Source: an uncultured cyanobacterium
GTDB lineage: Bacteria; Cyanobacteriota; Cyanobacteriia; Thermosynechococcales; Thermosynechococcaceae
Reading direction: 5' to 3'
NCBI GenBank assembly: GCA_937951315.1
Contig: CALFCG010000010.1
Coordinates: 1 to 33,859, forward strand
Length of the DNA stretch: 33,859 nucleotides
Shown piece after piece: positions 10,498 to 13,119 of the stretch (positions are counted from its first letter, which is position 1; every line of letters begins with the position of its first letter). The translations under genes were made by a program, and so were the position numbers. The notes beneath the pieces are model-generated. The model was not told the DNA's origin and did no database searches. It saw only the letters and a program-made list of their open reading frames with translations.

Positions 10498-11637
<1,140 letters not shown>

Positions 11638-11644
11638 CAGACGG

Positions 11645-12925
11645 CTAAATAAAGACCATGGGCTTATCCTTGAGGGGCGCAAAGGCTTCAGCATTAAAGC
11701 GATAGAGCGAAGCGGGGCGCCCCGCACCCCGGCCCACCTTTTGCCCGGTCGCGCTGAGAAAACCCAGCTTCAGAATTCGAGCCCGAAAGTTAGAATAATC
11801 GGAGAACTGTTCCCCCAAAACGGTACTGTACAAGTGATACAGGTCCCCGAGGGTAAACTGATCTGGCAAGACATCGAAGGCAATGGGACTGTACTCTAGT
11901 TTGTTGCACAGTCGACGGTGGCCGTAATCTAGAATTTGGGCGTGATCAAAGGCCAGTGAAGGAAGCTGCCCCATAGGGTGCCAAGACAAGAGATGGCACT
12001 CATCACTCATCAGCAGAGCTTCTTCATAGCGGACAACCGCAAAGTAACTCACGGATAAATAGCGCGCGTTTTCAGTTGCTTCTCTTGGGTCTCGGTTCGG
12101 GCCACCAAAGGTATAAAGCTGTTCTAGATAGAGATTTTGGGCTCGAATTTTCTCTGCCAAGATGCGATAGGCCGCATCCTCTAGGGCTTCGCCTTGGCGA
12201 ACCAACGTCCCCGGCAACGCCCATTGACCAGCATAGGGGGGCGTCTGACGCACTGCTAATAACACCAGCAACTGGTTGCGGCTGGTGTCAACCGAAAAGA
12301 TGACGTTATCGACGCCCACATTGAAGCCAGCCAAAGGGAGATCCGCAGGAGTCTCATGACTTTCCGTCAGTTGGGGATAGAGATCATGCGCTTGAATATA
12401 GGTAGAGATCGTCTCCGGCAATCCAGCCGCATTACCGGTATTGCGATAGGCACTAGAAGAAATGTCGGGTCCGAGAAAATTTGCGATCGCAACTTTCGCA
12501 CCTTGCGATCGCAACGCCTGCAGCGTCGCCTCAATCAGGGGAGCCCCAGAGCGCGGCAGCACCAAAATTTCCACGAGATTCAACAGTTCTTCAACACGAT
12601 GCCAATGTAAAAGCGTCGGCAACACATCGGACCCCACCACCAGAGTAAATTGAGCTGAAGGCCAGCGCTGACGCGCCGTATTCACAGTATTCAACGTCCT
12701 GGGATCACTCAAACGGGGATCATGCTGAATCTGAGGGAGTTGAACATGGTCCACCAAGCACCGCAGCATTTGCTGCCGGTGTTCAAGGGGAGTTTGATTC
12801 CCCTTAAACGGATTATCTGACGCCCAAACAGCCACTCGATCAAACCGTTGAGCCAGCCACTCTAAAACCACCTGATGACCAATCGTGGGTGGATCTGCGC
12901 TCGTACCAAAAAGAGCAATATTCAT
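11645..12925 (-). CDS. NadD-like adenylyltransferase fused to NrtR-like Nudix/winged-helix regulator
   Basis: A 426-residue three-part protein. Residues 1-185 are a nucleotidylyltransferase of the NadD/NMNAT type: GTSADPPTIGH at 7-17 (the (H/T)xGH site), VVGSD at 96-100, and ISSSAYR at 155-161. Residues about 200-345 are a Nudix fold with LPGTLVRQGEALEDAAYRIL at 237-256. The Nudix box is damaged: the catalytic REUxEE is RILAEK, leaving one of three glutamates. Residues about 350-412 (FTLGDLYHLYSTVLG ... NFRARIL ... GRPASLYRF) match the DNA-binding domain of NrtR, the Nudix-related repressor of NAD genes. Inference: a NAD-biosynthesis enzyme joined to its own sensor-repressor. Whether the first domain is still active is not provable here. 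Confidence 0.8.
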   Translation of the reverse strand: MNIALFGTSADPPTIGHQVVLEWLAQRFDRVAVWASDNPFKGNQTPLEHRQQMLRCLVDHVQLPQIQHDPRLSDPRTLNTVNTARQRWPSAQFTLVVGSDVLPTLLHWHRVEELLNLVEILVLPRSGAPLIEATLQALRSQGAKVAIANFLGPDISSSAYRNTGNAAGLPETISTYIQAHDLYPQLTESHETPADLPLAGFNVGVDNVIFSVDTSRNQLLVLLAVRQTPPYAGQWALPGTLVRQGEALEDAAYRILAEKIRAQNLYLEQLYTFGGPNRDPREATENARYLSVSYFAVVRYEEALLMSDECHLLSWHPMGQLPSLAFDHAQILDYGHRRLCNKLEYSPIAFDVLPDQFTLGDLYHLYSTVLGEQFSDYSNFRARILKLGFLSATGQKVGRGAGRPASLYRFNAEAFAPLKDKPMVFI

Positions 12926-13119
12926 AGCGGTCGCATGAGTAGGGAAAGCAACAGAACAGGATTTGGGATGCAGCTCACATCCTTAAACGCAAAGATTGAA
13001 AGCCGTGGAAGACCACAAACGGAACTTTTCCTCCAGGGCTCAACGTCAATCAAACCCAAGGTCTTAATTAGGGTCAGTCAGATCAGAACATAATGGTAAG
13101 ATGACCAGAACTTAAAGCC

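Follow-up and report, generated by a model that had tools for sequence, protein, structure and literature searches.

A cyanobacterial NadD–NrtR fusion protein predicted to join an NAD-synthesis enzyme to a repressor of NAD genes

The fused gene and its domains

The window analyzed here is a stretch of 33,859 nucleotides from the genome of an uncultured cyanobacterium of the Thermosynechococcaceae (assembly GCA_937951315.1, contig CALFCG010000010.1). Translation revealed one uninterrupted open reading frame (ORF) of 426 amino acids plus a stop codon on the minus strand, at positions 11645 to 12925, in which nadD is fused to nrtR. The gene and its parts are as follows:

11645–12925, minus strand: nadD–nrtR fusion gene (ORF, translation, profiles)
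12368–12925, minus strand: NadD (nicotinate-nucleotide adenylyltransferase) domain, residues 1 to 186 (NF000842, PF01467, fold match, conservation)
12875–12907, minus strand: GTSADPPTIGH, NadD nucleotide-binding motif, residues 7 to 17 (translation, conservation)
12443–12463, minus strand: ISSSAYR, NadD motif, residues 155 to 161 (translation, conservation)
12332–12367, minus strand: linker between the NadD and Nudix domains, residues 187 to 198, with a disordered core at 190 to 198 (pLDDT <50)
11894–12331, minus strand: Nudix-fold sensor domain of NrtR, residues 199 to 344, start approximate (PF00293; SoNrtR 3gz5 and BtAraR 5bs6 by sequence and fold)
12140–12208, minus strand: degenerate Nudix box TLVRQGEALEDAAYRILAEKIRA, residues 240 to 262 (87-sequence alignment)
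11648–11893, minus strand: NrtR/AraR-type winged-helix DNA-binding domain, residues 345 to 426 (PF19368, PF21906, conservation)

Seven bases separate the 3' end of the fused gene from that of a convergent gene on the plus strand (10624 to 11637); the latter encodes a short-chain dehydrogenase/reductase (Pfam adh_short) with no evident link to NAD synthesis.

The initial annotation of this DNA had proposed a NadD/NMNAT-like N-terminal domain, and each of our analyses agreed with that assignment. Residues 1 to 186 scored 237 bits against the NCBIfam equivalog NF000842, for which the cut-off is 167, matched Pfam CTP_transf_like (PF01467) with an E-value of 2.7e-12 and found NadD structures by sequence search. 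The (H/T)xGH and SSTxxR-type signatures of NadD are present as TIGH (residues 14 to 17) and ISSSAYR (residues 155 to 161) and are conserved among relatives, with S157 and R161 of the latter found in every alignment row that spans those positions. Moreover, all 38 positions conserved across 83 unfused NadD proteins are retained in the window protein (38/38).

The C-terminal half shows the architecture of the NrtR family, a Nudix-like domain followed by an NrtR-type winged helix, as judged by Pfam and by fold matches to SoNrtR and BtAraR. The Nudix domain matches PF00293 at 1.4e-12, and the winged helix, which retains 49 of 51 conserved positions, matches PF19368 (AraR_C) at 1.6e-45 (153.6 bits) and PF21906 (NrtR_WHD) at 1.6e-19 (70.2 bits), in keeping with the C-terminal NrtR DNA-binding segment that had been recognized from the letters. 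By sequence, the nearest solved structures to this half are BtAraR (5bs6, 7e-37), SoNrtR (3gz5, 1e-24) and NadQ (7q91). The fusion scored 115.7 bits against NCBIfam NF050029, the equivalog for ADP-ribose–responsive repressors, which is below the cut-off of 400; its sequence thus places it in the broader NrtR family, outside that equivalog.

An AlphaFold model of the whole chain (mean pLDDT 89, pTM 0.57) contains three confident domains, with residues 190 to 198 disordered. Since the pTM is low, the model does not predict how the domains are arranged. Fold searches with it returned AraR/NrtR structures over the C-terminal half, NadD structures over the N-terminal half and a weak NadM–Nudix match across both. 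Hence, profile searches and structure prediction support all three domains, and three outcomes named beforehand as counting against the annotation, namely an ordinary catalytic Nudix box on realignment, a C-terminal end unlike a winged helix or an N-terminal part lacking an adenylyltransferase fold, did not arise.

The disordered linker bears on an alternative in which the locus yields two proteins, a full-length NadD–NrtR and an NrtR made from an internal start, or in which the linker is cleaved, such that the activities would be physically uncoupled. TTG and GTG codons do lie near residues 196 to 203, but the junction in the window contains neither an ATG nor an evident ribosome-binding site, and the junction of the fused protein from a relative in the same family (G303) likewise lacks a methionine. 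We regard this alternative as quite unlikely.

The Nudix box was said in the initial annotation to have lost two of the three glutamates of REUxEE, and this is so: the motif reads RILAEK at residues 254 to 259, and the glycine of Gx5E is also replaced (T240). The impaired signature typical of NrtR is therefore found in the window protein at T240, I255 and K259. However, the loss is not specific to the fusion. In an alignment of 87 related cyanobacterial NrtR sequences, fused and unfused, the box takes the form R-[IVTM]-[LM]-x-E-K, with T240, R254 and E258 each present in 87/87, K259 in 86/87 and a glutamate at position 255 in 0/87. Because the glutamate loss is shared by all 87 relatives, it is a trait of the family rather than a product of fusion, and we rejected decay of the Nudix box as a hallmark of the fused proteins. 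NrtR regulators generally have an impaired Nudix signature, and several lack enzymatic activity; DNA binding by the Shewanella and Synechocystis NrtR proteins is suppressed by ADP-ribose (PMC4666351).

An ancestral operon and its fusions

At most of the cyanobacterial loci examined, nadD and nrtR are separate, adjoining genes in the order pncB–nadD–nrtR–nadE, and the two are often very close or overlap in different frames. An uninterrupted fused frame was present in five genomes: that of the window (G000), two from the same family (G303 and G307) and one from each of two other families (G070 and G318). Several look-alikes were discarded. An apparent 504-residue frame across nadD and nrtR in G157 (L015) contained five stops between the genes on direct translation, and at L003 to L008, L010 and L104 the genes are same-frame neighbors with an intervening stop, which was checked individually at L003, L006, L010 and L104 and taken from the genome search output at the others. 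In a genome that is 74% complete (G304, L135/L126, contig C104), nadD and nrtR appear to be frameshifted, with stops within the nrtR match, reflecting either gene decay or assembly error. Several genomes encode a second NrtR-like protein, with ∼45% identity to the C-terminal half (G296:C152, G292:C2, G294:C12 and G297:C75).

As G000 is a metagenome-assembled genome (MAG) of 390 contigs, estimated to be 83% complete, and since nadD usually overlaps nrtR or comes very near to it, a sequencing or assembly error might have merged adjacent genes. The four other uninterrupted fused frames led us to reject an assembly or frameshift artefact peculiar to this MAG: their linkers differ, one lies in an assembly of two contigs that is 99% complete (G307), and those of G070 and G318 still sit within the operon. 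Nor is the window fusion simply the operon with one indel, because its nadE and pncB neighbors are gone. We consider an error to be highly improbable.

Phylogenetic analyses argue against one origin for the fusion. A single clade of fused proteins was rejected by the concatenated NadD+NrtR tree (p-AU 7.7e-5), though long branches are involved; the starred branches of that tree require at least four changes, while the separate NadD and NrtR trees require at least three. As the trees reject a single origin, adjacent genes appear to have fused repeatedly, with the exact count uncertain because some of the end branches are long. The trees and the survey of loci thus suggest that the fusion is rare and arose more than once.

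In G000, G303 and G307, the customary partners pncB and nadE no longer accompany the fused gene, and a search for pncB across these three genomes, run without a positive control, gave no match. All three carry a NadM–Nudix gene (L204 on contig C342 in G000, separate from the fusion; L203 and L201 in G303 and G307), which is absent from most relatives examined. In G000 this gene is followed by one for a protein that, by eye, we take to resemble nicotinamide phosphoribosyltransferase. Apparently, the operon came apart where salvage of nicotinamide took over from that of nicotinate.

A candidate operator before NAD genes

Upstream regions of pncB in family f1 yielded the palindrome TTATRGTAA-N3-TTACYATAA. 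All upstream regions at the loci were scored against it. Those of pncB reached at least 14/18 at 39 of 45 loci, a count that includes the few loci that supplied the motif, compared with 0.7% of shuffles. Nine nadD upstream regions, mostly at loci without pncB directly ahead, also reached this score; those of nrtR and nadE did not.

Five whole genomes (G000, G303, G306, G307 and G308) were then scanned with TTWTRGT-N7-ACYAWAA. Nine perfect matches were found, six of which stand just before NAD genes, namely nadA (four) and pncB or nadD, and a one-mismatch site lies 49 bp before nadM in G307. The nadA sites are independent of the loci from which the motif was derived. The identity of nadA was checked by Pfam PF02445. 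Of the 14 genomes whose nadA upstream regions were scanned, 12 had a 14/14 site, a score that none of 20,000 shuffles attained. These data suggest that TTWTRGT-N7-ACYAWAA is the likely operator, located before the first gene of the operon and before nadA.

Two of the fused genomes tie this site to the fused protein. The perfect nadA site lies 45 bp before the start in G303 and 34 bp before it in G307, and in each genome the fused protein is the sole NrtR match. This would be explained most simply by binding of the fused protein to the nadA site. Two of the 14 genomes lack the site. One of them, G302 (L193), provides a natural control, where nadD is present, nrtR has no match and no operator precedes nadA; the operator thus seems to require the regulator. 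In the other, G174 (L191), nadD and nrtR are unfused, yet the 600 bp preceding the conserved nadA motif contain no operator.

The window's own genome gave a different result. Upstream of the fused gene, the best site with 7-base spacing scored 11/14, which was equalled by 218 of 2000 shuffles. A scan of the same intergenic region also returned one weak candidate:

13091–13110, minus strand: weak operator-like sequence TTCTGGTCATCTTACCATTA, 12/14, with 6-base spacing (site scan of the intergenic region upstream of the fused gene)

This is possibly a decayed operator, or a chance match. No good operator was found before nadE (contig C336) or nadM in G000, and nadA was not found in this 83%-complete assembly by protein and Pfam searches. 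The scan of the whole G000 genome gave one perfect match, which lies inside a coding frame, and one-mismatch matches near no recognized NAD gene. The initial annotation had suggested looking for a palindrome shared by NAD-gene promoters. One was found before pncB, nadD and nadA in relatives; in the window's genome, the regions scanned ahead of nadE, nadM and the fused gene gave none that is convincing.

Such a pattern might be expected if the protein were an enzyme only, that is, if the repressor half in the window's lineage had lost its targets and persisted through passive retention or as an added structural element, leaving the NAD genes free of NrtR control. The break-up of the ancestral operon in G000, G303 and G307, where the search described above did not detect pncB, is also consistent with this possibility. 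However, the conservation of the window's winged helix noted above would be unexpected in the absence of selection, perfect nadA operators have been kept in G303 and G307 despite comparable operon loss, and the concurrent absence of nrtR and of the nadA site from G302 suggests that the site is not kept without its regulator. We therefore judge the enzyme-only explanation unlikely.

A predicted two-function protein

The data are best explained by a two-function protein, and we think it probable that this chain, formed by fusion of nadD to the downstream nrtR, combines a NadD enzyme with an ADP-ribose–responsive NrtR repressor. This explanation builds on what the computations directly give: the domain content, the conservation of both halves, the recurrent fusion, and the candidate operator together with its co-occurrence with nrtR. 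The architecture, the ancestral operon, the predicted operator and the nadA site kept in G303 and G307 all favor the NAD enzyme with its own NAD-gene repressor that had been proposed at the outset; the lack of a convincing operator at the fused gene, nadE and nadM in G000, the failure to find nadA in that assembly and the missing nadA site of G174, whose nrtR is unfused, weigh against it.

In the mechanism that we infer, the N-terminal half would act as a NaMN adenylyltransferase, converting NaMN and ATP to NaAD. The C-terminal Nudix fold would have lost hydrolysis and would bind a ligand, which is ADP-ribose in characterized NrtRs, and the winged helix, as a dimer, would bind TTWTRGT-N7-ACYAWAA at NAD genes and repress them. 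The targets would ancestrally be pncB–nadD–nrtR–nadE, as well as nadA and, in one genome, nadM. Increased NAD turnover would raise the level of ADP-ribose, an NAD breakdown product, which would release the protein from DNA and thereby increase NAD synthesis. A further coupling between the halves is conceivable, though doubtful: the protein may be a trigger enzyme, in which occupancy of the NadD half by NaMN, ATP or NaAD alters DNA binding by the NrtR half, so that the cell would sense NaMN-adenylylation flux along with ADP-ribose.

Comparison with known systems helps to place the fusion. It resembles known NrtR proteins, such as Synechocystis NrtR, in its Nudix fold with an impaired box and its C-terminal winged helix, and, at the level of the family, in the linkage of the gene to NAD genes (pncB–nadD–nrtR–nadE) and in a predicted palindromic operator of the GGT-N7-AC type before them. 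Unlike the fusion, those proteins carry no adenylyltransferase domain on the chain. BtAraR (5bs6), from the arabinose branch of the NrtR family, is what the C-terminal half matches best in both sequence and fold, and this half also matches Pfam AraR_C; however, BtAraR senses arabinose and adjoins sugar genes, whereas the context and predicted operator targets of the fusion are NAD genes. Agrobacterium NadQ (7q91 to 7q94), likewise a regulator of NAD genes, has a structure that matches the C-terminal half, but it lacks a NadD domain, was solved with NAD and ATP bound and matches by sequence within residues 325 to 412 alone.

NadM–Nudix proteins (NMN adenylyltransferase/ADP-ribose pyrophosphatase; 2qjo, 2r5w) share with the fusion the order of an adenylyltransferase followed by a Nudix domain, with a weak fold match over both, but have a NadM-type enzyme, an active Nudix domain and no winged helix. 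In NCBIfam scans the fusion gave weak, partial matches to this group that fell far below the cut-off, and its Nudix box is degenerate.

The textbook case of an enzyme that doubles as the repressor of its own pathway is enteric NadR, which combines an HTH repressor, an NMN adenylyltransferase and a ribosylnicotinamide kinase. Its parts are not known to be of the NadD or Nudix/NrtR type, and its effector is NAD rather than ADP-ribose. NadR is both an adenylyltransferase and a repressor of nadA, nadB and pncB (PMC7221760), and the fusion would be similar in that an adenylyltransferase of NAD synthesis and a repressor of NAD genes are joined in one chain. Pfam and NCBIfam scans of the fusion found none of the NadR domains (NadM-type adenylyltransferase, ribosylnicotinamide kinase and N-terminal HTH). 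Thus, the fusion is not a member of the NadR family; at most it would work like NadR, and the likeness would be a convergence in design.

Our literature search, which was incomplete, found no description of a NadD–NrtR fusion, although earlier notice elsewhere is possible, and the architecture is probably listed in automatic domain databases. Because a candidate operator and a nadA target have been identified, the idea of coupling is testable, and the natural pairs of fused and unfused proteins would allow its effect to be measured. If the trigger-enzyme reading is true, cyanobacteria have several times evolved a convergent counterpart of NadR, with NadD and NrtR as its parts. A second, structurally unrelated NadR-like design arising repeatedly from operon neighbors would show that selection favors the coupling of NAD adenylyltransferase to NAD-gene repression.
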